A stretch of DNA of 64,000 nucleotides, taken from the NCBI GenBank assembly GCA_001599915.1, contig BCIG01000020.1:186001-250000 (forward strand), in the 5' to 3' direction. The translations under genes were made by a program, and so were the position numbers. The stretch comes from Symbiotaphrina buchneri (Eukaryota > Ascomycota > Symbiotaphrinales > Symbiotaphrinaceae). Positions 1-59,326 of the stretch are shown piece by piece (positions within the stretch are counted from its first letter, which is position 1; each line of letters opens with the position of its first letter). Under the pieces are notes generated by a model. That model saw only the letters and a program-made list of their open reading frames with translations. It was not told the DNA's origin and ran no database searches.

Positions 1-3000
1 ATACCCGTCTCCTTGGCGTAATGAGCGGCATGGAGTTCTCTGGGGTGGCGCAACGCTTCCTGACAGACTTGGAAACAATCCAGAAGGATCATGGGAATAG
101 GACAACAGTTAATAGGGATGTTGAAGGCCGCGCCGAACTCATCATCTCAGGCATGCAAAAGTTGCAGTTATCCGCAGATTCGCCGGATGCGTGGGAGAAG
201 TCTTGCAGCTTCATGGTCTCGATAGGGAGGCTCTTCGCCGACTCGCATGGCCAGCGAATCAAGCAAAGATACTGTCATGTGATATCTGGTCTTCTAAGTC
301 CTCTGATGACCAAGTCATCCTCTCAATTCAACACTCCGAAGTGGAAAAGCTTCCTGGAAATCATCAATCCGAGAGTATCACAGTTGCTACTGAAGCCTAA
401 GCATTGGCAATATGCATTCCCACTGTCAATAATTCTTTGTTGTACATCTCCGACAGACACGTTTGCAAGCCAATGGACTCAGGCTGTCTCCTCACTACAG
501 CCGAAACTGAAGGATCGAACGACCAGACCACCGGCATTGCAAGGTATCTGCAGACTGGTGTGGACTTATCTCTTTCGCACAAATGATTCTCCCAATGTCG
601 CGTTACGGAAGCTTGAAGAGGTCACGCGAATCGTCTTCCCCCCTGGGAGACGATCGTACCTTTCAACGGAACCATCAGTAGCCGAGCCCGTCATTCAGCT
701 TATTCGATTCATTGGTTTCAAACACCAGGATTTTGCTTTCAGGACAATCATTTTCCCCCTAATCAACTCTGATCTATTCTTGTCTGGGAAAGACTTGAAA
801 GTAGACCAGCTGGAACCGGAGAAAATGGTCATCGGTATTCGGGCCTTTTTAGCCATAATGTCGGACCTCGAGCAAAATACTGGAGACCACCTTCCGTTTC
901 CTCAAGCATTCGGATCTAGATCAGTAGTGGATCCGCAGCTGCCATCGCAAATACTTCCGGGCGAAGCCTCTGGCATTGGCCTGCAGAACGCGTCTCAAAT
1001 ACGAGAGGAGCGACTATCACGGCCAGTAATTACCAGCGGCTTTGCAGATAGCGCCAAAGAATACTACCAGCGGTTTTGTGAGATACTGGGCAAGATCACG
1101 ATCATTTGCGACAATGCCTTTGGTGGTCAAGCAGCCTTGGACGAAAAGTTTAGCGCACAGACACCGAAAACACCGATAGCTGAAACTTTTAGTTTCAGTC
1201 GACGAGACGATAGCCAGAATGTCAATGAACAGAAGCAAGGTTTCTATGATCTGCTCCATGTGGCCGTACAGGCATTGCCACGGTGCTTATCCTCTCACAT
1301 TCCGTTTAATTCCCTTATCAACCTGTTGTGTACAGGCACAGCGCATGTACAAACTAACATAGCTTCATCTTCCGCCCAGTCGCTGAAGTCGATTGCACGG
1401 CAATCCCATGCCCAGCAGGTGACAATTGGGTTTGCAAGGTTTATCTTCAACTTCGATGATCGTTATTCTACCATGTCGGACGGAGGCATGCTTGGTCCTG
1501 GGCATATTGAGAGTACGCTTCGGCTCTACGTCGAGCTTCTCCGCATATGGATTGAAGAGATTAAGCAGAAGACGAAGGGCCTGGGCAGTGAACACTCTGA
1601 AGATCATGGTGCCGGCAGTCGCGGCGTACATCTAGACTTCTCGGGTATCTGGGCGTACGTGGATGAAATCGAGAGCCACGGTCTTTTTTTCCTCTGCTCC
1701 CAATCTCGGGCTGTACGCTCGTTTGCTGTCACGGTGCTGCGCCTCATCACACAGTTTGACAAAGCCCTGGGCAAAGACACGCCGCGGTTTATACAGATCT
1801 TGGAAGGTGATTCCCTTCAGGTGCTGGAAATGAATGACGACCATCTCTCCGTCGCAGAGAGGACAAGGCTACAACGAGGAATGCGAAGGAGCAATTCCCA
1901 AACTACCTTGATCGAGCTTTGCAGCAGCGAAGTCTCGTACGAGATGACTCTATGGTCCAAAATCTTCCCCAATTTAATACGCATTGGATTTGAAAAATGT
2001 CCGTTCTCTATGACACTCGCCCGGGATATCATATGTGCAAGATTAGGGCAAATGCATCCGAGCATTCAGCTACTCGCCGACGCGCCCCGGGGACCACAGT
2101 TTGCTACTCTAGATATGATCTCAACTCGGTCAGCTACACGACACATTTCACCCCAACCAGAATCGCTAGTGGAACAGTGGAAGCTGTACCTTGTCTTCGC
2201 TTGTACGACGATGCTTAACCCCGGTTCCCAGCAACAGCAACAACTCCCCAGTCAGATCCATGCACGCAAAGCGTCGAAAATCCAGCAACCTAACCATGAT
2301 AAGATAACCACGGCTACGTTGCTCTTTGGTCGGGTAATCCCACTATTGTCAGCATCTTCAAGCTCTGTCCGCGATGCTGTGGTCATGGCACTTGGCTCTA
2401 TCAACATGAATTTGTACAGGACCCTCCTCGAATCTCTCCAGGAAGCGGTCATCAGGTGCAATCAAGAAGCAAGGCAGCGTATCGGCACGCATCAGCGCAC
2501 TGGAAGCAGCCCCCGTAGAAACCGCGAGAATGACCGCTTACGGACTGAGATCACCCATGTCTATAAATTGACTTCGCATTTCCTAAAGCAGAAGGAGGCG
2601 TACACAGACGAGTGGATTCTGAACAACCTTGTTACCTACACCAAGGAGCTGAGGATTTTCTTGAGTGATGCAGAAGTGCAAAATGACTTTGAATTCCAGA
2701 GATTAAGATGTCATTACTGTGGTCTGATGGAGGAACTTTTCGAAGGAATCAACCGCACGAAAGATCCTAGCAGGTGGATGCCTTTTGAATCCCGGAAGTC
2801 TGCTTTCGCGCTCATGGAAGACTGGTGCGGGTATTCGCCAAATCGTAGTCAGATAAGAGAGCGTGAACATACGATGCGGCGATCCGTTCTCGAACAGCGA
2901 CGAGACCTTGCAGACAAAGGTACAGTAACTGCCGCTATGGAAATCGAAAAAAGGAATCTGAAGACAGCGGCTTTGAGTGCTATGGCTGCACTTTGTGTAA

Positions 3001-6000
3001 GTTGGCCCTCCCCTCCTTGCAAGCATAGATATATCTAATCTTCGCTTAGGGAGGCCCTGTCAGTATCACCACCGAGAGCAGCCGAAACTTGCAGTTCGAT
3101 GTAGGTCGGATGCTGTCGTGGATTGACACTATCTTCCAGACAATCAGTGATAGGATGCACGCCATCGGACGCAGGGCTCTTACGAATCTCATCGTGCATA
3201 ACAAAGGCTACCCTCTACTTCTGGAACGCTCGGTGGGAATGTGCTATCTCGCTGATACCCCGAAAGCCCTGGGTAGCTACTTTGAGGTTGTGTCCCAAGT
3301 TTTGTCTGTTCACGAGGACTACCCACTACCATTTTGGAGAGCATTAGCGGCATGTTTGTTTACCCTCGGCAACGAGGATAGCGAGATTCGATCGAAATCT
3401 GCTCGCCTTCTACGAACTCTGGAAGAGCGTCAGCAGAAGTCATCCAAGGTTCAAGATTTTGACGTCAGTGTCTCAGATAAGACCAAGGCTGTATACAAGT
3501 TGGCGCAATTCGAGATCTCTAAACGATGCTCCAAGCAGCATTCACCCTTGGCATTCCTTGTCTTCTCAGAATTTGCTTCCTATTTCAAGGATCTGCAAGC
3601 GGATCACCAGAGAAACATGGTCGCGGCAATACTGCCCTGGATACAAACAATTGAACTTCAACTGGACCCGAATGGAGGTCCAACTGCGTCGTCATATATG
3701 GTCCTGGCAAACCTGCTCGAGATCACCATCAAATCGAGTGGGAACCTGCATAACGAAGTGCAAGCTTTATGGCAGGCACTCGCTACTGGCCCTCATGGTG
3801 GTAATGTTCAGGTTGTCCTAGACTTCATTATCAGCCTGTGTCTAGATAAGAGGGAGCAGAATTTTGTCAATTTCGCCAAACAGATCGTCGTGTTCCTCTC
3901 AAGCACACCGGCAGGGCTCAAAGTAGTAGAATTTCTTCTACTTCAGATCAATCCAAAGACCATGGTCCAAGAAAAGCGTGAACCGATTGCGCCTCCTCTT
4001 GAGGTATTCGGCTTACCGTATGTTGCTAACCTCTCACTGGCTCTACCGGGGGGAAACAAACAAGTGAGTCAGATCTAGCTACGACTGTTCATCATTTACT
4101 GACAATGCGACAGTCAGGATTCTCTTTGGGACAATTGGCTTTGATCTTACTTGTGGATTTAATGGTGGCTCCCGTGGAACTTTCTCCGGACACTGTTCCC
4201 CTACTTCTACAGGTGGTCCTCATCCTGTGGGACCATTATATTCCCCTAGTACAAGAGCAAGCAAGAGAAATGCTCATACATCTGATTCACGAACTTGTAA
4301 TTTCGAGACTTGATGACGGGTCTGCAGGTGCGGCCAAGCGCTCTGCCGAAGATTTCATCGAGTCTGTACGCCGGCATGACAAAGCTGTACTGTGGACTTA
4401 CGATGATGACAACGGAAAGGATATCCAAGGTGATATTAAGGTACCAGCTGGCATGGAGCACGTTGCTTCGATGGTGGTTGATATCTTCTCGATTGCCTAT
4501 CCTGGTATCCGTGAGCAATGGGCCAAGATGAGCTTGACTTGGGCAACCACATGTGCAGTTCGCCATTTGGCATGCCGGTCCTTCCAGATCTTTCGCTGTA
4601 TCTTGACGTCTATCGATCAGATGATGCTCGCAGATATGCTAGGACGGCTCTCTAATACGATATCAGATGAGGATGCCGATATTCAAACTTTCTCCATGGA
4701 GATATTAACTACTTTGAAAACTATAATTGGGGAACTCGAAACGACGGATCTCCTACAGTTTCCCCAGCTCTTCTGGACGACGTGCGCTTGCCTGAACACG
4801 GTTCATGAGCGTGAATTCTTGGAAGGTCTTTCTATGCTGGAGAAGCTCCTGGATAAGATGGACTTGGCTAGTCTGACCACTGTCAAACTAATTTTGGAGA
4901 GCAAACCGCCAAAATGGGAAGGTGTATTCGATGGTGTGCAAGCTCTTGTTCACAAAGGCTTGAGGTCAGACTTGTCATTGCATAGGTCGCTTGACATGAT
5001 CAATAGGCTTGCTGTCATGCCTAACAATGAGCTCGTCGGCGATAAGAGTCGGATGCTGTTTGCTGTACTAGCCAATCTTCCACGATACCTTCACGCTCTA
5101 GATACAGCTACCTTGGACCAAGACTGTGTGGCGTCGATCGAGAAGTTAGCTGCGGCCGCTGAAATGCAAGGATGGGCGGATATGGCAGACGTCCTGACAG
5201 AATACTCGAATGCAGGCTACGACCGTGCTCAGGATTTCGCATCTGCGGCTGTATTGGCAATTCGGTCGTTTGTGTTCGCGGACTGGGATTTCAAATCGCT
5301 TGTCTTCCTGATGGGCTTATTGACAAACCGCCTGCCCTGGTACAAGTTGAAAACAATGCAAATCCTTTGCGTCCTCGTGCCAGATATTGATATGCGCAAA
5401 CCCGAGTTTGCGTCTCACGGACCGGATATCATCTCTCCTCTTTTACGGTTGTTGCAGACGGAATTCTGTCCTCAAGCTCTCGAGGTTCTGGACAATGTAA
5501 TGGTGATGTCTGCGACTCCTATGGATAAGCATATGATGCGCATGAGCATGGCCGGTTCCCAATCGCGAGCAATTCGGAAGGAATATGAGCGCACCAAAAG
5601 TCTGTTTGGTATCCCGGAAGAGACTGGCTGGTCGATACCAGAGCCGGCAACGCATTCAGCAACCACTAGAAATAATGTCCACGCCGTGTTTTACACATGT
5701 GGGAGCGCGGAGACGATAATAACGCAGAACACTGGTACCCCGGACGTGGAGTTCCACCTTGATGACTATCAGTATGACTACTTTGGTGAACGGACAGCCA
5801 CGATGATGTCCGAAGACGGTCGGGGCGAAAGTAATATGGGTGATCTAGTCATGAAACTTGATAGCCTGGACGACTTCTTCGACGATGTGACTGTGCATCC
5901 GGAGTCCACCTCTCGCAGCGTCGACCATGACAGAATCCACTTTCCGATAGATTCAATTGATGCTGGGGCTAGTGTATATGACCAGCAGACACTGCCCATT

Positions 6001-21322: not shown

Positions 21323-21408
21323 TGCCCCCTCTGCGATTTGAACGCAGGGCCTCATCATAACAGACTTCAAGGTACGAGTGATGCGCTCTACCCCTGAGCT
21401 AAGAGGGC
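21323..21408 (-). tRNA. tRNA-Thr (anticodon CGU) with 14-nt intron
   Basis: Minus strand. Acceptor GCCCTCT pairs with AGGGGGC (one G-U); D-arm GCTC/GAGC; anticodon stem CATCA/TGATG; T-arm CTGCG TTCAAAT CGCAG. Anticodon CGU is at 21374-21376; the 14-nt intron 21359-21372 lies at the canonical 37/38 position. A box (TAGCTCAGGGG) and B box (CGTTCAAATCG) are intact, and a T-run follows about 17 nt downstream. Discriminator base A at 21323. Confidence 0.93.
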
Positions 21409-22919: not shown

Positions 22920-23870
22920 CTACATCCCTCCCCATTCAACACAAAAGGTCCGGACCTTTTGACCGTCTTCCGTGCCCTCAGAAATTGCGGCCTCGGCGTT
23001 GGCTCTCTCAAGTCCGCCGATTAGATAGCCCTTTTTGACCCCTGTTCCCAATCTCCCACCTCCCACCAAGTCCAGAAGATCAAATTCGTCATCCCAGCCA
23101 GCGGATACTGCCAAAAAATGACTATGAAACCGTAGCGGGTCTCCTGGGTAGACAAGGTACTGGCAACCAAATCGGAGTCCCGGTGAGATGAAATAATCTT
23201 TGGAATGGAGATGTTCAAATAGTGGGTACGACGGGGGCACTTCCGGCTGCCTTGAACCGGTGTCCGGGGGAGGGCGCGCTAGGGGAGGGTAGGATGTAGT
23301 TGGCGTCACTCCATACGCCAATACATCCGTAGAACGTGGAGTCCCGGAAGATGGAGCATCGAGTGACTCTTCAAAGAGATCTCCAGACTGAGCTGATCCA
23401 CTGGTCTCCATGCCATTCCGATGGTCCAATTGTGTACTACCAGACGCGATGGAATCGGAGCGGTCAGTCCGGCCAAGCTTAGTCAATGCCTTCTCCTTCC
23501 GTGTCTCTGCCCGCTTTCGCGCAGCTTCAGCAGCCTCCAACCCTTGCTTTTGCAGGACATCCAGATAGGCTTGCTTCTCTTCGAGTCCTAACTGCTGTAT
23601 TCCTCTCTTGTGCCATTCCACATCATCAACAATGAAAGCTGCTCCTTTCTTAACCAACAACAGAGCTTCTTCCGGCATCAGCTCCAGGGGGATTCCTAGG
23701 AAGACATTCTGCTGTGGGACTTGTGGAATAGTCCCAATGAGCACACCGCATATATGATATTCCCTTCTAATGTACGTGACAGCATTAACGTCGTATAGAA
23801 GGTAGCGGTCAGCGACCCGAGAAATGGGGAAAGGCTCGGCCACTGTAGGCGGCAAATTGGTTTCCGCCAT
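22920..23870 (-). CDS. sen34: tRNA-splicing endonuclease subunit Sen34
   Basis: Single-exon 316-residue catalytic subunit of the Sen2-Sen15-Sen34-Sen54 endonuclease; Sen34 cuts the 3' splice site of tRNA introns. The N-terminal domain (DVNAVTYIRREYHICGVLIGT) is followed by a charged helix rich in Lys/Arg/Glu and a Ser/Thr/Pro linker. The C-terminal endonuclease domain begins YPLFEHLHSKDYFISPGLRFG and carries the Tyr-His-Lys triad in YLVYPGDPLRFHSHF and KKGYLIGG. Length and order match the family. Confidence 0.94.
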   Translation of the reverse strand: MAETNLPPTVAEPFPISRVADRYLLYDVNAVTYIRREYHICGVLIGTIPQVPQQNVFLGIPLELMPEEALLLVKKGAAFIVDDVEWHKRGIQQLGLEEKQAYLDVLQKQGLEAAEAARKRAETRKEKALTKLGRTDRSDSIASGSTQLDHRNGMETSGSAQSGDLFEESLDAPSSGTPRSTDVLAYGVTPTTSYPPLARPPPDTGSRQPEVPPSYPLFEHLHSKDYFISPGLRFGCQYLVYPGDPLRFHSHFLAVSAGWDDEFDLLDLVGGGRLGTGVKKGYLIGGLERANAEAAISEGTEDGQKVRTFCVEWGGM

Positions 23871-24308
23871 GAAAACCTATCATAACGTCAGCAAAGTTGC
23901 CCATACTCCGAAATTTGAGCAGCAATGCGAAGCTGTGCAATTCAGTTCATAAAACAAATGGTATCGTCAATGACCAATGTCTAGCCTAGGCCTCAGGGGA
24001 TTGACAGATTGATTGAAAAGATTTTTTAATCATTGAATAGCATATAAAGAGACATATATTTCAGTCACTCACCTGAGCGGTTTCGCACCTCGCCAGGGAA
24101 ATCCGGTGGCTTACGGTAGCTATCGATGAGTGAGTGAGGGCGGAGAATGATCTGCAGCTCGTACTTTTTTCCTGAAGCGAAAGCGGTGACGGTCGGCAGT
24201 TCCCGAACCTGCCGAGCGGCAACACTGCGAGCACTGGCCGGCGAGTTAAACTTCGACTCCGAGAGATGTTATTCAGCTCGTCAACTTTGATCCTGCGCGC
24301 CAGCTAAT
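23871..24308. other. Divergent promoter region sen34 / small membrane-protein gene
   Basis: About 440 bases, with an AT-rich stretch near 24000-24065. No gene or clear motif recognised. Confidence 0.4.
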
Positions 24309-35699: not shown

Positions 35700-36037
35700 A
35701 AACAATTTACCGTATCTTAGCGTTATCGATGAGGATAATCCGAGAAACTAGACCTTGTAAAGTAAGGCGCGTTTGCTGCGGTTAAAGGTTTTTCCGAGAA
35801 ATCTAATCTCAAGTGGTTTGTATCTCACGATGATGGTCGCTGGCTGTATTGTCGTTTTGCGTCGTTCACTCGAGATAGAGTAGGCAGCCTTGCCATATAT
35901 GGAACGGCCCCGATTATATAGCTCGCCATATCGTCCCACCATGGTCCTCACCTGTCTTATCATTTCAACTTCCTGGATCATCGCATGACCCTGGGTCACA
36001 CCTCATCACCAGCTTGATTCATGCCACAAGGAGCGAT
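35700..36037. other. Divergent promoter region SNF2 gene / clr2
   Basis: 338 bases shared by two chromatin-protein genes. No TATA-like or repeated motif stood out. A putative ATG in another frame lies at 36020 (upstream of clr2) and could open a short upstream ORF. Confidence 0.4.
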
Positions 36038-38056
36038 ATGCCACCCAATAATTACTATCCTCTCTATGTCTTGAGGTCGGACGGGAAGGCCACGGTCTAC
36101 TCTTCTGTTACAAAAAAATATGAAGCGAACCGGCCCACTCCCGAGCAGCTGGACGATAAACCAGATGCCAAGGGCATCTCGGACTTTTACCGCAAGCTGG
36201 ATCCGAGTGATCTCAAGGAAGAAGACTGGCGACGGAAATTAGGTGGCATGCTGATGCGGGAGCTGGGCGGAACACCTGGTAGGTGCTTTATGGTCGATGC
36301 TATGTGCCGGAACGGTAGACTAAATGGCACAGAAGGGAGCAACTACATCTTAGCAGAATTGCCGGAGCATTACACATTGTACGAACACTTGAAAATCACG
36401 GCTGCTGCGGATGGGACCGTGCAAAAGTCCTCCAGGAACCATGCCAAAGGTGCAAGTGAACGCCAGGATGCTTACCTTTATGGGCATCCGTTGGGCCGCA
36501 AAAAGCGCTACCGAAGTCCTGGCGACTTCTTCCCACATCTGCTGTGGTTGGTGACTGACAAGGATGGAGATCCGAATAACTGCTCCTGTAAAATATGTTG
36601 TCCTGAAGATTTGCAACCTTCAGCGCCGGCAGAGACCATGCCAACCAATCCTTCGAACGATCAGAACCCGGAAACAAGAAAGGAGGGATCCAAGGACGCA
36701 CCTCAAAAGACCTCGTCATCCGGCGAAAGTCCGGCAACAAATTCCTTGAGCACTATAACCGTCGCTTCTCACACGGCTCAATCAAGTCAACGAGCTTCAC
36801 AGCCAACTGCTCCATCCAAAATGACTCCATCCGCAGCACAGCCTCCGGTATCTCGCGCCGCACATCCGACGCCTCTACCTGCTACAAGAAGCTTAGAGCA
36901 AGAACTTGATTCGCAATACAATCAATTCATGTTTCGTCTCGGAGAACTTGTGTGGTTCAACCGTGGGGCTGCCTGGGGCCTGGGCGTGTTAGCCCGAAGA
37001 GAATATGCCAAAGATCCGCAAGTATCAGGAGACAGGCGCAGGTATCTTGTACAGCCTCTATCACATCCATTCGCACCAGCACCTCCCCAGATCATTCCTG
37101 ACGAAGGACTTCTCCGCCCTTGGCTGGCCTGGAGTGCGCCGGCGCCGACTCACCCTGGGCTGTCTACACCAGGGCTGACATATGGTGCTATCGATTGGAA
37201 TGCGGTGATCCAACAACACTACGGCCAGGGCGATCCCGAGGTTGACGCCAGTATTTTCGCAGCCAAGGCTATTGACAGTAGCTTCACCCCATTCGGTCAG
37301 ATCAGCACAGGTCCGCAAGGAGAGGTCCATTTCAATGGTATCTTCCTTGGAGCAGAGAAGATCTGGTGCGGTGAAGCCCTGCACCTACGCAATACCACTG
37401 GTACAGCGCCCACCAGTGATATTCTAGTTCTACAGGCCATCATCGAAAGAGCCCGTCATGATCCAAATACGAACCAACCCAGCAGTGTTGTCTACGTGGT
37501 TGGCGATCACTATGCTTTCTCTTCCGTGGCTCACGATCCAAACAGACCGATCCCCGAAAATATGAACTTGCCTCTCCGAGTTCGGGAAGATCTCAAGTAC
37601 CGGAACACTGTCACGATCCCCTCGAAGGGCGTGGAAGGGTATTGGAAGCTCGTTCGTCCTCTGACGAGTCTCAATCTGACGGACATCCGGGGGAGGTGGT
37701 ACGAATCCAGCCTCTTGCTGCCGATACTACGTGGCGCCGTCGATTTCAACAACGACCTGCAAAGAGGTGAGATCACCGATGCTGGGCTGTGGATGAACGG
37801 TCGCGGAGATGCATCGGGCACTGTGAACAGGATGGGCCCGAAGTTGATGGACAGGCATGAGGCTTTCGGCAATGCTGTCCCGCGAGGCTTCAGGATCAGC
37901 CCAGGACTTGATGGTCCTCCAGAGCAGCCCTTGGAACAGGAGACCGCTGTCTCCAGGCAAGACGACGATGTGGACCAGTTTATGAACCTGGACCCTGTCG
38001 AGCAAGATGGGTATATGGCGCAATATGGGGGAAATGGGAGCCAATCCTTTACGTGA
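36038..38056 (+). CDS. clr2: Cryptic loci regulator 2 (Clr2-like, SHREC silencing complex)
   Basis: Single exon; 672 residues from the ATG opening MPPNNYYPLYVLRSDGK. Clr2 is part of the SHREC histone-deacetylase/remodeller complex that silences heterochromatin in fission yeast. The N-terminal region (WRRKLGGMLMREL ... NYILAELPEHYTLYEHLK ... HPLGRKKRYRSPGDFFPHLLWLV ... CSCKIC) and the central block (FRLGELVWFNRGAAWGLGVL ... YLVQPLSHPF) match the Clr2 N-terminal and transcription-silencing domains. Between them is a long Pro/Ser/Thr-rich linker. The C-terminal part contains a barrel-like segment with VVYVVGDHYAF and IRGRWYESSLLLPIL. Paired with a SNF2 ATPase on the opposite strand. Confidence 0.85.
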   Translation: MPPNNYYPLYVLRSDGKATVYSSVTKKYEANRPTPEQLDDKPDAKGISDFYRKLDPSDLKEEDWRRKLGGMLMRELGGTPGRCFMVDAMCRNGRLNGTEGSNYILAELPEHYTLYEHLKITAAADGTVQKSSRNHAKGASERQDAYLYGHPLGRKKRYRSPGDFFPHLLWLVTDKDGDPNNCSCKICCPEDLQPSAPAETMPTNPSNDQNPETRKEGSKDAPQKTSSSGESPATNSLSTITVASHTAQSSQRASQPTAPSKMTPSAAQPPVSRAAHPTPLPATRSLEQELDSQYNQFMFRLGELVWFNRGAAWGLGVLARREYAKDPQVSGDRRRYLVQPLSHPFAPAPPQIIPDEGLLRPWLAWSAPAPTHPGLSTPGLTYGAIDWNAVIQQHYGQGDPEVDASIFAAKAIDSSFTPFGQISTGPQGEVHFNGIFLGAEKIWCGEALHLRNTTGTAPTSDILVLQAIIERARHDPNTNQPSSVVYVVGDHYAFSSVAHDPNRPIPENMNLPLRVREDLKYRNTVTIPSKGVEGYWKLVRPLTSLNLTDIRGRWYESSLLLPILRGAVDFNNDLQRGEITDAGLWMNGRGDASGTVNRMGPKLMDRHEAFGNAVPRGFRISPGLDGPPEQPLEQETAVSRQDDDVDQFMNLDPVEQDGYMAQYGGNGSQSFT

Positions 38057-42966: not shown

Positions 42967-43926
42967 CAAAGGTGCTGGAAGATGTTGGCAAAGCGCGTGA
43001 TGCGCTCTGCTCAAGGGCGCGGCGTCCGGCGTTTCGGGCGATAGTACACATTTCGACTTCGTCGACAATGTCATCCATCAATTCATTGATATGACCGACA
43101 GCTGCCGTATAATGCGTCAGTCTATCATGCGAATGTTCCGCTCGGAGTATGAGAGCGGTTGATCTAAACCCCGCGATATGACTCCAGATTCGGCCCACCT
43201 ACTGAAGCACCTTGGAAGGATCCCTCCATTCAAATTCCGTTGTAACTTGATGCAGCACAAGTAAGCTTGCATCCAAGTTTCATGACGGAGTTCGTCCACA
43301 ATAGGTTAAAAGGAGAGGGCAAGTTTCTTCCCAACTGGCTTAAGCTATGTATGATCTGATACACCGGATGCTACTCCCGCGCCCGCTCGCCGAGATGGCG
43401 AAGTAACCCCTGAGAAGCCCCTGAACTTACGCCCACGAACGCCTCCTCACCGCCCATTCTGAACTGAAGGTTCGCACGTAGGGCACTCCTCCCAAGATTT
43501 ACTACATTCCTACCGAACGATAAGCTGGAAGAGGATATCTGAAACGGCGGCAGGAATCGCAATAGGCAACTAAAAAAGCCCAGGGTTCGCCCGGTCCCAT
43601 TACCGTATTCGGGAACACTTGTAGCAAATCCACGTCCGATTTCCTAGAGTTCCTGCGTTTTACACTTGAAGCAATGCTTTCGACTATCATTACAATTCTT
43701 TGTTGCAATCTTTTGCTTTTCCTAAGAGCCTCGCTAGGGTGCGCACTGCAGTACAACGACTGGCTCGGATTCAAATCCTAGGTCTGCCGAACGACAGGAC
43801 CCCGTTGAACACCGTCAACTAAGCAAAAAAATCACATCACCGAAAAGCCATGTCGTGGAAATATCCAATCCACAAAGCAGAGTGTCAAAAAAAGGTCAAA
43901 AAGAGGCCAATAAGGCCCAAAAAAGC
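42967..43926. other. Gene-poor region left of tRNA-Gln
   Basis: About 960 bases without a supported gene. A B-box-like GGATTCAAATCC at about 43769-43780 lacks the rest of a tRNA. No repeat recognised. Confidence 0.4.
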
Positions 43927-44076
43927 AGGTCTTACCCGGACTCGAACCTAACCGTCGCAACCGGATTAGTGGTGTGTTTGATGAAATACAGCCTGATCTG
44001 AAACCTACCGGGGTTGTCGGAAAGTTTGATCACGAGGAATCAAAATCCGAAGTGCTAACCTCTACACCATAAGACC
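43927..44076 (-). tRNA. tRNA-Gln (anticodon UUG) with canonical 17-nt intron and a 61-nt insertion at the T-stem/T-loop border
   Basis: Minus strand. After removing 44023-44039 (17 nt, position 37/38) and 43947-44007 (61 nt, between positions 53 and 54) the product is a 72-nt tRNA with every stem paired: acceptor GGTCTTA/TAAGACC, D-stem GTGT/GCAC (one U-G), anticodon stem TCGGA/TCCGA with loop TTTTGAT, variable CAAC, T-stem CCCGG/CCGGG, T-loop TTCGAGT. It resembles yeast tRNA-Gln(UUG). The A box (TGGTGTAGAGG) is intact. The B box GGTTCGAGTCC is intact because the insert ends in AGG. Six Ts follow within three bases of the 3' end, a Pol III terminator. The insert begins and ends with TAGG. It is either a second, non-canonical intron or a disrupting insertion. 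Confidence 0.85.
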
Positions 44077-52254: not shown

Positions 52255-55200
52255 ATGGCCTATCTCGCTCCAATACATAGGCCAAGTAGTGTCCGGCATG
52301 CTCTCAAACTCAATTTCCTCTCTCCCGAAGAGGAGTGTCTCGTGCTTGCGTGGGTGCTAATGTGGATGTTATCGTTGAAACCATGCTGACGATTAGCTTG
52401 TAGCAAGGCCAATCGTCTCGAATTCTACAGACAAACTCAAGATGGGCTCAATCTCCAGCATTCAAAGGCGATCTACGGCAAAGTTACCATGTTACAAAAG
52501 CTACATCCGGCATCAGCACTTACCGATCACCTCTTCGTGGGAACGGACCGTTTTATGTACTTCACCTTATCCTGGGACCCCTCAACAAGTCAGCTACGGA
52601 CAGAGAAAGCATATGTGGACCAAGCAGACAAAACAGCCCGAGATACCCAGACAGGGGATAGGTGTTTGATGGACCCAACAGGACGTTTCCTTACTTTGGA
52701 GCTCTTTGAAGGCATAATAACAGTCCTTCCGACAGTTCAAAAGACGCGAAAGAAGATCGATGCTGAGATCGGCAGCTTGTCAGATCCAGTGCCTGCTCGG
52801 ATACCGGAGTTCTTTGTGAGATCCTCCGCGTTCCTCCACTTCCCAGATGCAGAGAGGGAGAAGCCGAGGCTAGGCCTATTATATGAAGACTCACAGAGCC
52901 GAGTGCGGGTAAAGGTACGCGAATTGACTTATACTGCTGGTGGAAGTGGAGATCCTGGCAGCGTAGAGTTGAAAGATATGGAAAGCCCACAAGATGATTT
53001 AGAGCTCGGTGCGAGTCACCTCATACCGATACCCAGCCCTACCTACGGTCTTCTTGTACTAGCCGAGACTTCGATCATTTACTACTTCCCTGACTTCCGA
53101 CGGGGTCGTATCACAAAGCCATTGGCACAGGCGACCATCTTTGTTGCATGGGAGAGAATTGACTCACAACGAGTCCTCTTGGCTGATGACTATGGCAAGC
53201 TATATCTCATGATGCTCTTGTTGGACAGCTCCAATGCGGTTAGGGACTGGAAAATTGATGAGATAGGCACGACCTCTAGGGCCACGGTTCTTGTCTATCT
53301 GGGAGATGGTGTCGTATTCGTTGGATCTCATCAAGGGGATTCTCAATTGATACATATCGTCGAGCAGGGGATTGAGACTATTCAGACATTCTCGAATATA
53401 GCTCCTATTCTTGATTTCACAGTCATGGATATGGGAAATCGATCAGGCGAAGGTCAAGCAAACGAGTATTCATCTGGCCAAGCTCGAATTGTGACTGGTA
53501 GCGGCGCGTTTTCAGACGGCAGCTTACGCAGTGTTCGAAGTGGGGTCGGCATTGAAGACTTGGGCCTCCTCGGCGAAATGGAACATATCAGAGACGTCTT
53601 TAGTCTTCGTTCCTCGGGTAGCGGTGTGTTCTTCGACACACTTGTCGTCTCCTTCGTAGACGAGACAAGGGTGTTCTGCTTCAGCCCCGAAGGAGAGGTT
53701 GAAGAAGTAGAAGAGTACAAGTCATTGGTACTGACTGAAAGTACACTTCTGGCTGCAAATGCACGGGATGATAAGATCATCCAAATCACGCCGTCATCCG
53801 TGAGGCTAATAGACGCTGAAGGTGGTACAGTCTTAGCCCAATGGTCGCCTTCTGCTCCAGCCGCTATCACCGCTGCAGCAGCCAACGACGACTCTGTTGC
53901 CTTGTCTATAGGAGGCACCAATCTTACCATACTGGACATAGCGTCTGACTTTTCCGTTACATCTCAAAAGACATTCGAAGCTGACAGTCAAGTCGCATGT
54001 TTGACAGTGCCAGCTCAATTACCTGAGATTTGTGTTGTTGGCTTTTGGCAAAATGCCTCGATATCCATACTGCGGCTTCGGGACTTGGAACCACTGCAGA
54101 CTGAAGTTGTTGGGGAACAGGGCGTCTCCGTGCCCCGCTCTGTACTTTTGGCCAATCTCTTCCAAGACCAGCCACCTACCTTATTTGTTGCAATGGCAGA
54201 TGGCCATGTTGTGACATTCACGTGCAATCGCGACACCTACGCCTTGTCTGAGAAGAAAAGCACCGTTCTCGGGACACAGCAAGCAACTTTCAGAGCATTG
54301 CCGAAAGAAGATGGCCTGCTTACCGTCTTTGCGACATGCGAACATCCTAGCCTGATCTACGGATCCGAGGGTCGTATTGTGTACTCGGCAGTCACAGCAG
54401 AGAATGCATCATGTGTCTGTCCTTTCAATGCGGAAGCCTATCCTGGCTCAGTCGTGTTGGCGACCTCATCCGATTTGAGAATCGCTCTAATAGATACAGA
54501 GCGCACCACGCATGTCCAGACACTCCAAGTGCATGAGACCGTGCGTCGCGTCGCGTACTCACCAAAACTGAGGGCTTTCGGGCTCGGTACCATCAAGCGT
54601 ACATTAGAGGATGGTGAAGAGATAGTCAAGAGCCACTTCAAGCTGGCGGATGAAATTCTCTTCCAGGAGCTTGACACCTACGCGCTGAACGAAGATGAAT
54701 TGGTGGAGAGTGTCATAAGAGCAGAATTAGACAACGGCAGGGGTGAATTAGAGGAGAGATTCGTTGTGGGTACAGCATACTTGGACGATAGCAGAGACGA
54801 GTCAATCAGAGGGCGTGTAATCGTTCTCGAAGTGACAGAGGATCGGCAACTCAAGCTAGTCACGGAGCTTGCTGTGAGGGGAGCCTGCAGGGCCCTCGCC
54901 ATGGTACAAGATAAGATAGTAGCCGCTCTCATCAAGACTGTAAGACTACGCTCCATGGGACCGAAATCTGAGCGGTCACATACTGATCTTTACTAGGTTG
55001 TCATATATGGACTGGACGTCGAAAATTCAAACCAGCCTCACCTTGTCAAGAGCGCCAGTTACAGAACTGCCACAGCTCCTATTGACATAGCTGTCACCGG
55101 CAACCAGATTGCTGTAGCGGATTTGATGAAAAGCGTCTCCATTGTCGAGTACAAGCGTGGCCAGGAAGGCTTTCCAGACAGCCTTCAGGAAGTGGCGCGC

Positions 55201-55813
55201 CATTTCGAGACGGCTTGGGGCACGGCTGTAGCACATGTGGCGGAAAATACCTTCCTCGAGAGTGATGCAGAAGGCAATTTGATTGTACTCCATCGCAACG
55301 TCAACGGTGTCACAGAGGATGATAAACGAAGGTTGCAAATCACGAGCGAGATGCAGCTTGGGGAGATGGTCAACCGGATTTGGAGGATAAATGTGGAAAC
55401 GACTTCAGACGCCAGCGTCGTTCCACGTGCGTTTCTTGCGACTGTAAGTCCCCTCCGTGCTGCGATCGGATATCACTATAGCGGTCGGTTTGCTAACGCG
55501 ATGAGCCGAACAGGTCGAAGGGGCAATATACTTGTTCGCGCTGATCCACCCGAAAAAGCAAGATCTCCTTATGCGTCTGCAATCGAGCATGGCAGATCTT
55601 GTTCAGAGCCCAGGACACGTTCCCTTCAATAGATACCGAGCGTTCAAGAATCAAGTGCGAGAGGCAGAAGAGCCGTTCCGATTTGTGGACGGTGAGCTGA
55701 TCGAGCGTTTTCTGGACCTGGCAGAGCCTGTCCAGACGCAAATTGTCGAGGGGTTGAACCTTGATGTGGAAGCTGTGAGGACGATGGTCGAGGGGCTGAG
55801 ACGATTACATTGA
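52255..55813 (+). CDS. ddb1: DNA damage-binding protein 1 (DDB1/CPSF-A family)
   Basis: 1,125 residues; exons 52255-52349, 52404-54939, 54997-55443, 55514-55813. DDB1 is the triple beta-propeller adaptor of Cul4 ubiquitin ligases for nucleotide-excision repair and, in fungi, heterochromatin (the Rik1 relative) and DNA methylation pathways. Visible: MAYLAPIHRPSSVRHAL start, KANRLEFYRQTQDGL (exon junction), long propeller repeats, and the C-terminal CPSF-A region (VVIYGLDVENS ... IAVADLMKSVSI ... VHRNVNG-type block ... RFVDGELIERFLDL). Length is close to animal DDB1 (about 1,140), which favours DDB1 over CPSF160 or SF3B3. Confidence 0.9.
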
Positions 55814-57624: not shown

Positions 57625-59326
57625 TCATTCATCCACTTGGTCCTCACCCTCTTCTGTGTTCCTGACCTCGCCCTTCTCCCGTGGCTCTAATAGTTTCGGC
57701 TCCTTCCAGCTCTGATACAGCTCGTTCTCAATAACGGTGTAAAAGGAACAGTAAGGGACACCGACGCAATCGAAATACTTCACGCCGCAACTGAGCTCTT
57801 TTACCGACGCCTCGAACTTCATCCCACGGAAACAATGATGAAGCACTTTCTCCTCAACCCAAAATTCGTGCAGCTCAAAAGGGTCGAGGTCCAGGTCCTC
57901 TTCCCCGTCTTCGCTGCAGTCTTCATCTGCCCATCGATCATTGACCCAGCGCTTGGCTAGCAACCTCCCCAAGACTGGTAGGTTGTCGTTGAGTTTCACA
58001 TGATAGAAGTTCCTGGTATCTGAGTCGGCATATATGATGTTCGTTACCTCGAAACCCATCCAGTATTCCCTCACCATTCTCAGATTGCCATCAATGACTT
58101 CACGAACTTGGTCTTCTGTGCCATTCGCTGCCAGACCTGCCATGACGACTTGCTTGGCCTCCGTATCTGAGATGGCACACGCGCTCTCTATGCCTTGGGC
58201 CCACTCGGCATCCTCGCCACGTCCGACCTGGAATTGCCCACCGTAAAGGGTCGAGCAAGCCTTGTTGAACTTTCCTGGAAGCATGACCTTGAGGTTTGCG
58301 ATCTTGACGAGTTCGACCTCGGCCATGTTACAAACAGCTCGGGCATCTTCGACCTGGGCCTTATACTCTGGACACACCTCGTGATGTAGAAGGTAGTTCA
58401 GGAAATTGCGGACGACGGACACACAGGCTTTGATCTGCTGTTCTTCCTCTAAGAACAGGAACTCCTGCACCCTACAAGAGCTGTTTCTCCTTATTAGCTC
58501 CAGGTTCTGAACATGGCTACCTTTCCAAGAACTTACAAGAATGCCTTCGCTATAGCCACGAAATCGATGGCCCATGGCGAGTCATCCTGGCCTGCGTAGA
58601 ATTTGTCGGCGCCCACATGGTTCGTAGCTGTCATGGCTGTGATATCTGCCGCCGTGGCCTCCTCCATGTCAGCCTGCGTGATCCCGCCGGTGAACATCTT
58701 TGGCTCGCTGTCCACACCACCGAGCCTCATGTACTTGTCGAAGATATCCTTCCGCTCGCTGTCGAACTTGCGCTTGGCTTTGTACCGTTGAATACAGTTC
58801 TCGATACGACTGCAGTGTCACGATCAGTAAGGGTCAACGGTCCTTCTTTAGTCATAGCACGTACGTTGCAAAAGATTGGCGTCTACTCCTGGTTAGCAGA
58901 CCGTTCATCCCAGACACTTGCAACTTACGAATCATAGAGTTTGCGCTCCTCCTCATATTCAGCTGGCGTAAGTGGAGCTTCAGCATAGTTCTCTTCGAAG
59001 CCGGTCGGCTGTCTCTGAGAAAACGTGAGCCAACGTGACATGAAAATCACAGGATCTTAGCTCATGCGATGACGGACCGCCTTGCTCTTGCTCTTCTTCT
59101 TCTTCTTCTTCTTGGGCGCGGCTACAGGTTGCAGATCTGTTTGACCCACATCGTCGCCCGCATCGTCATCCTGATGGCTAGGGATATCAGGTGTTGCCAG
59201 CGTTTCATGAGAATCATGAGTGTCTGGCTTCGCCTCGTCTGCTTGATGGGCGCCATTCGTGGCCTCCTTCGACATATCCTGAGGCTCGCTCTGGGCCATC
59301 TCGCAATCACCTGCGGCAGTATCCAA
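57625..59326 (-). CDS. arb1: Argonaute siRNA chaperone complex subunit Arb1
   Basis: 484 residues; exons 59326-59078, 59014-58929, 58809-58537, 58471-57625. Arb1 holds Argonaute with duplex siRNA in the ARC complex and is needed for heterochromatin. The N-terminal 83 residues are acidic/low-complexity and end in a Lys run (KKKKKKKSKSK) coded by CTT repeats on the plus strand. The family core starts PTGFEENYAEAPLTPAEYEEER and continues RIENCIQRYKAKRKFDSERKDIFDKYMRLGG, and ends with the YFDCVGVPYCSFYTVIENELYQSWKEP block. The first intron (59015-59077) needs a GTCCGT donor, because the next frame-keeping GT follows a stop. Confidence 0.88.

Follow-up and report, generated by a model that had tools for sequence, protein, structure and literature searches.

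Candidate spliceosomal introns in nuclear tRNA genes of a pezizomycotine ascomycete

The 64-kb window, the whole stretch of DNA that was analysed, carries a tRNA-Gln(UUG) gene with two introns on the minus strand (Table 1). The Rfam tRNA model aligns positions 43927-44076 with two inserts at 32.9 bits, compared with a gathering score of 29. Removal of both introns leaves a product of 72 nt, which ARAGORN reads as tRNA-Gln(UUG). The preliminary description of this locus had arrived at the same product, and its coordinates for the 17-nt canonical intron agree with ours. ARAGORN called no gene in the raw window. This miss is not specific to the Gln(UUG) gene because an ordinary intron-bearing tRNA-Thr (21323-21408) was missed as well. 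The fold of the unspliced gene is unremarkable (z -1.49). A box and B box were assigned by their consensus sequences. The B box is intact because the second intron ends in G; it and the T6 terminator had already been described as intact. An open reading frame with a tRNA intron endonuclease catalytic domain is located about 20 kb from the tRNA gene. Its product, presumably the Sen34 subunit, is expected to be part of the enzyme that cuts 37/38 introns.

The 61-nt insert has four cut positions that are tied by structure. It had been described as 43947-44007, which has the right length and is one of the four. A shift by one base, to 43948-44008, yields GT...AG ends. Cut in this way, the insert reads GTAGGTTT...CACTAATCC...GGTTAG, and this cut was ranked first of 2820 substrings by an intron model. 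With the internal CTAAT, these ends resemble the layout of short spliceosomal introns in fungi. The similarity of the two insert ends looks like a similarity of the junctions CCCG/GTAGGTTT and TTAG/GTTCGA, rather than a target-site duplication. At gathering scores, Rfam detected two tRNAs only in the window, with no group I or II intron match. Group I and II introns usually have sizes far above the 49-69 nt of the inserts described below. An assignment to these classes was rejected on the missing Rfam match in the window and on insert size.

The assembly of this pezizomycotine ascomycete comprises 23,383,419 bases in 82 contigs. The DDB1 protein encoded in the window is 64-67% identical to those of Pycnora, Pleopsidium, Sarea, Xylona and Candelaria, the best-scoring named matches. 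The fungus thus belongs to the Pezizomycotina, and none of these named matches comes from a close relative. The tRNA model had 27 matches in the assembly at E 0.001 and 30 at E 10, and 62 of 613 first-look candidates were scored. Further tRNA genes came from B-box patterns and from short stretches around matches. All 91 places with GGTTCGANYCC and 46 of 81 with GGTTCAANYCC were scanned; acceptor partner and A box were assigned by rule, and the remaining pieces were judged by eye. This resolved 42 nuclear-type tRNA genes. Two of them (L003 and L059) were counted as insert-free by sequence reading and stand outside the 40 entries analysed for canonical introns. Genes for Met-i, Met-e, Phe, Ser(GCU), Ser(CGA), Ala(UGC), Pro(CGG), Val(CAC) and Leu(UAA), all nine presumably present in this genome, were not found in this incomplete catalogue. 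Phe and initiator Met have B boxes that deviate from the pattern. A B-box search misses split or deviating B boxes; that no introns were seen 3' of position 54 is therefore in part an ascertainment effect.

Six loci were excluded from the 42. Three have no assigned isotype. L058 (identical to L034, C1 near 519000) has good acceptor, D and T arms, a B box and a T6, with TTGTGACACAA at the place of the anticodon arm. The anticodon loop seems to be missing, and ARAGORN prints 'tRNA-???'. L018 (C12:528725-528886) matches the tRNA model at 48.6 bits and has a long insert and no placeable U33. L133 (C25:154443-154717) has a TGTCCAG/CTGGACG acceptor and a good T arm; no pairing was found for its anticodon stem. 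The other three, L007 (C3), L014 (C1) and L113 (C9), are tRNAs of mitochondrial type with a high AT content. All three lie on large contigs, L007 and L113 near N positions, and they may be nuclear copies of mitochondrial DNA or misjoins.

Inserts outside 37/38 are present in 15 of the 42 resolved genes, which carry 16 of them. Fourteen of the 15 genes were first found without recourse to splice signals, either by a B-box pattern or by the tRNA model. The exception, Ala(AGC) L099, was first found by a CTAAY...AG pattern and is present in the B-box list too. The genes are spread over nine contigs of 0.49-1.32 Mb (C1, C9-C13, C20, C22 and C27). As raw sequences and with the intron option, ARAGORN missed eight of them and called seven with a wrong identity. 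The preliminary description had also considered a recent insertion in a single gene. This is contradicted by the 14 other tRNA genes of the genome with the same type of insert.

The insert positions in tRNA numbering were assigned by hand. They range from 11/12 to 53/54 and include the D, anticodon, variable and T arms. All 16 lie outside 37/38, so that the inserts were rejected as canonical eukaryotic tRNA introns. These have a fixed position and coexist with the inserts in 14 of the 15 genes. Fifteen inserts have GT-AG ends and one has GC-AG ends, and each cut restores a tRNA (16/16). The 5' hexamers are GTAAGC (4), GTGAGT (4), GTAGGT (2), GTTAGT (2) and GTCAGT, GCAAGT, GTTAGA and GTGGGT (1 each); the 3' ends are CAG (10), TAG (5) and AAG (1). 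Insert lengths are 49-69 nt (n=16). An exact CTRAY motif was found in 14 of 16 inserts, with its A at 10-18 nt from the insert end. In the six T-arm inserts, the intron end adjoins the B box. The final G of the intron is G52 or G53 of the tRNA in Gln, Pro(AGG), Arg(UCU) and Ile, and the internal promoter is therefore readable. Downstream of each of the 15 genes, a run of four or more T starts within 43 nt. Short blastn at E 0.01 found no similar pairs among the tRNA inserts, the Gly pair included. A recent introner burst is not suggested by this comparison, which covered the tRNA inserts only.

Table 1. Features of the window and tRNA genes of the assembly with inserts outside position 37/38
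Feature	Position in window	Strand	Insert position (tRNA numbering)	Details
tRNA-Gln(UUG) gene, exons and two introns	43927..44076	-		Rfam RF00005, 32.9 bits; spliced product tRNA-Gln (ttg) by ARAGORN
Canonical intron, 17 nt, Sen-type	44023..44039	-	37/38	coordinates from sequence
Spliceosomal-type intron, 61 nt	43948..44008	-	52/53, slides to 53/54	GTAGGT ... CTAAT ... TTAG
Putative branch site CTAAT	43965..43969	-		branch A 18 nt from intron 3' end
B box GGTTCGAGTCC	43938..43948	-		first G is last base of insert
A box TGGTGTAGAGG	44059..44069	-		read from sequence
T6, Pol III terminator	43919..43924	-		starts two bases past gene
ORF with tRNA intron endonuclease catalytic domain	22920..23876	-		PF01974, 49.8 bits
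DDB1 mRNA intron 1, 54 nt	52350..52403	+		GTGGGT..CTGAC..TAG; intron-model score 18.9
DDB1 mRNA intron 2, 57 nt	54940..54996	+		GTAAGA..CTGAT..TAG; intron-model score 16.6
DDB1 mRNA intron 3, 70 nt	55444..55513	+		GTAAGT..CTAAC..CAG; intron-model score 22.5
tRNA-Arg(CCG), L025			19/20	
tRNA-Ile(AAU), L026			53/54	
tRNA-Trp(CCA), L027			51/52	
tRNA-Thr(UGU), L038			32/33	without exact CTRAY
tRNA-Ala(AGC), L088			13/14	
tRNA-Pro(UGG), L089			23/24	without exact CTRAY
tRNA-Pro(AGG), L090			52/53	
tRNA-Arg(UCU), L091			52/53	
tRNA-Val(AAC), L093			15/16	GC-AG, GCAAGT
tRNA-Ser(AGA), L094			15/16 and end of variable arm	two inserts
tRNA-Ala(AGC), L099			51/52	
tRNA-Gly(GCC), L114 and L118			11/12 in both	
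tRNA-Asp(GUC), L136			30/31	

Canonical 37/38 introns were present in 36 of the 40 analysed tRNA gene entries. Their lengths are 9-62 nt; none of the 36 has GT-AG or GC-AG ends, and three contain CTRAY. The mRNA introns of the DDB1 gene in the window served as reference. They were located by tblastn of two DDB1 homologs and a frame-consistent spliced open reading frame, with the exact ends chosen by hand. The tRNA inserts of 49-69 nt share the anatomy of these introns of 54, 57 and 70 nt, a reference set of three. The median intron length in Fusarium is given as 57 nt (PMC5677156). The mRNA introns predicted by a small codon-based gene finder were weak and did not enter the reference set, and Golgi apyrase homologs provided no clear intron set.

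The choice of the cut was evaluated by structure, by the intron model and by the tRNA products. In the structure-only test, every deletion of 40-80 nt was scored. For 11 of 16 inserts, the top-scoring cuts included a GT-AG or GC-AG cut; one of these, Arg(CCG), had 51 ties. The other ten have at most five tied cuts, and each tie set contains a GT-AG cut; at 1/256 per cut, the chance of this is near 10^-20 in a post hoc calculation. For the remaining five (Thr, Ala L088, Val and both Ser introns), the structure score favours another cut by 0.5-3 points, and the cuts used here were picked by hand with the splice signals in view. Among about 2,400-4,000 substrings per gene, the intron model placed the tRNA-restoring cut first in 12 of 16 cases and second or third in four; its weights were set by hand after the inserts had been viewed. 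Real inserts scored 15.3-21.0 (n=16). The best scores of shuffled genes had a median of 11.3 and a 95th percentile of 17.8, and four of the 16 real scores are lower than 17.8. For insert-free tRNA genes (n=21), the top score had a median of 10.0 and a maximum of 16.0, and one of these control genes, L006 with 16.0, lies above the weakest real insert.

Removal of both kinds of introns gave ARAGORN tRNAs with the expected anticodon for all 15 genes. With removal of the new inserts only, ARAGORN also reported a tRNA in 15/15. Four had another anticodon because ARAGORN misplaces the 37/38 intron. By comparison, 215 intron-like deletions in other fetched stretches produced one tRNA, the known Thr(UGU) gene L038. 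Splice signals and restored tRNAs are seen in the sequence itself. After insert removal, the expected junctions are CCCG/GTTCGAGTCC for Gln and TTAGG/GGTTCAAG for Trp.

With a probability of roughly 0.88, the insert is a U2-type spliceosomal intron within a tRNA gene transcribed by Pol III, whose 37/38 intron is removed by the Sen endonuclease. The preliminary proposal of a non-canonical second intron finds support here. It compared the insert with ectopic introns of archaea and algae and overlooked the GT...CTAAT...TAG signals. Transcription, the splicing reaction, the order of events and the identity of the machine are deduced from sequence, and the pathway may be as follows. The internal A and B boxes would direct transcription of the precursor, in which the spliceosome would recognise GTAGGT, CTAAT and TTAG. 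The 61 nt would leave as a lariat, and the T arm would be restored. The Sen endonuclease and a tRNA ligase would excise the 37/38 intron, before or after the spliceosome step. Transcripts of at least 14 further tRNA genes would be processed likewise. Very likely, spliceosomal introns have become widespread among the nuclear tRNA genes of this fungal lineage, and translation would depend on the spliceosome for Trp, Gln-UUG, Val-AAC, Ser-AGA, Pro, Gly-GCC and Ala-AGC, with two unrelated machines acting on single precursors. Among the points against the spliceosomal reading, the spliceosome usually acts on transcripts of Pol II, and the U6 gene that was found lacks an intron.

The inserts may instead be ectopic tRNA introns that are cut by the Sen endonuclease via a bulge-helix-bulge (BHB) motif or a relaxed form of it, like those of archaea, Cyanidioschyzon and nucleomorphs. 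Overlapping positions are described for such introns, that is, 30/31 and 53/54 in archaea and the D and T arms in nucleomorph tRNAs (PMC4090602), and some are described as forming no defined BHB (PMC3978253). The endonuclease open reading frame in the window also fits with this explanation. A full BHB central helix was present at none of the 16 exact insert junctions. Within three bases of the cut, it was found for 5/16 inserts, compared with 12.5% of random cuts. A strict BHB with both arms was found within this distance for 2/16, compared with 1.3% of random cuts. Both excesses count against the spliceosomal reading. The two cases with arms are the first intron of Ser(AGA) and the intron of Pro(UGG), at a slide of 1-2 bases, but the structure of Pro(UGG) permits no slide. 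Cleavage by Sen leaves the GT/GC-AG ends and CTRAY motifs unexplained, as well as the narrow length range, and all of these distinguish the inserts from the canonical set. The inserts were rejected as BHB introns, and this explanation is considered improbable.

Dead genes are a further explanation: the interrupted copies would be pseudogenes or recent insertions, and other copies would supply the tRNAs. A review of 2014 described eukaryotic D-arm and T-arm insertions as occurring mostly in one of many synonymous genes and as taken for pseudogenes (PMC4090602). In agreement with this, uninterrupted sister genes exist for Ile(AAU) and Asp(GUC) (L006, L021). For the other 11 of the 13 affected isoacceptors, no uninterrupted copy was found among the resolved genes, in a catalogue that lacks nine expected isoacceptors. 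An intact second copy of tRNA-Gln(UUG), which had been proposed as a sign of a disrupted gene, was sought. BLAST of the spliced sequences on the assembly listed one locus each for Gln(UUG), the locus described here, and for Trp(CCA), and no other Gln(UUG) was among the resolved tRNA-model matches (62 of 613 first-look candidates scored). Trp has no alternative anticodon to fall back on. The two Ala(AGC) genes in the catalogue carry their inserts at different sites. Mature sequence and intron site are the same in both Gly(GCC) genes; their introns match in 41 of 60 aligned columns and have diverged, yet GTGAGT, CTAAT and AG are kept in both. This pattern would be the outcome expected from selection for removable introns; gene conversion may also have kept the exons alike. 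With readable tRNAs from all 15 spliced genes and so few intact copies among the resolved genes, the inserts were rejected as marks of pseudogenes, and dead genes are regarded as quite improbable. An assembly artefact or contaminating sequence is hardly conceivable. Large contigs of the 82-contig assembly do contain tRNAs of mitochondrial type and single N positions, but the 15 genes are distributed over nine large contigs, and the insert sequences are dissimilar (blastn, E 0.01) yet have boundaries of the same kind.

Spliceosomal introns in RNAs other than mRNA have parallels. The nuclear rDNA introns of lichen-forming ascomycetes are likewise of the mRNA type and are described as being removed also in yeast rDNA; their host is a Pol I rRNA without an endonuclease-cut intron in the same RNA, unlike the Pol III tRNA here (PMC8527467). 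The U6 snRNA of fission yeast also carries a spliceosomal intron in a Pol III transcript. It concerns one RNA only and is thought to originate from reverse splicing near the catalytic bases of U6 (PMC10484740). Fungal U3 snoRNA introns are spliceosomal introns in a small structured RNA as well, called mostly by their signals, but they reside in a snoRNA and almost exclusively in one stem-loop (PMC5832005). Interruptions of the D, anticodon and T arms, sometimes by several introns, are described for tRNAs of archaea, Cyanidioschyzon merolae and nucleomorphs. These are protein-spliced via BHB-like motifs or unexplained, and the descriptions cited mention no GT-AG ends or branch site (PMC4090602, PMC3978253).

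No report of spliceosomal introns in nuclear tRNA genes was recognised in the open-access literature, a scope that mostly excludes subscription papers and preprints. Spliceosomal-type introns across a fungal tRNA set are a real and, as far as could be seen, undescribed feature. Splicing of tRNAs by endonuclease and ligase is regarded as distinct from spliceosomal splicing, in a 2026 review as well (PMC13149111). If the spliceosomal reading is true, both splicing machines meet in one Pol III transcript. The fungus would be a natural system to study spliceosomal recognition of very short exons, a few dozen bases long, in a Pol III RNA, and the way in which introns enter structured RNAs. It also raises the question of a link between splicing capacity and the supply of tRNAs; for the lichen rDNA introns, such a link to ribosome supply was proposed (PMC8527467). 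In tRNAscan-SE 2.0, the search for non-canonical introns is described for the archaeal model (PMC8450103). Together with the failures of ARAGORN on the raw genes, this may be a blind spot, and other fungi could therefore hide the same introns.

The assembly has a single U6 snRNA match (C13:78988-79086, 85.8 bits). No intron interrupts it; a TATA-like stretch lies upstream of it, and a long T-run is present. The window also encodes two genes of the heterochromatin/RNAi type: Arb1 (PF09692) at 57625-58581 on the minus strand and Clr2 (PF10383, PF16761) at 35879-38056 on the plus strand.
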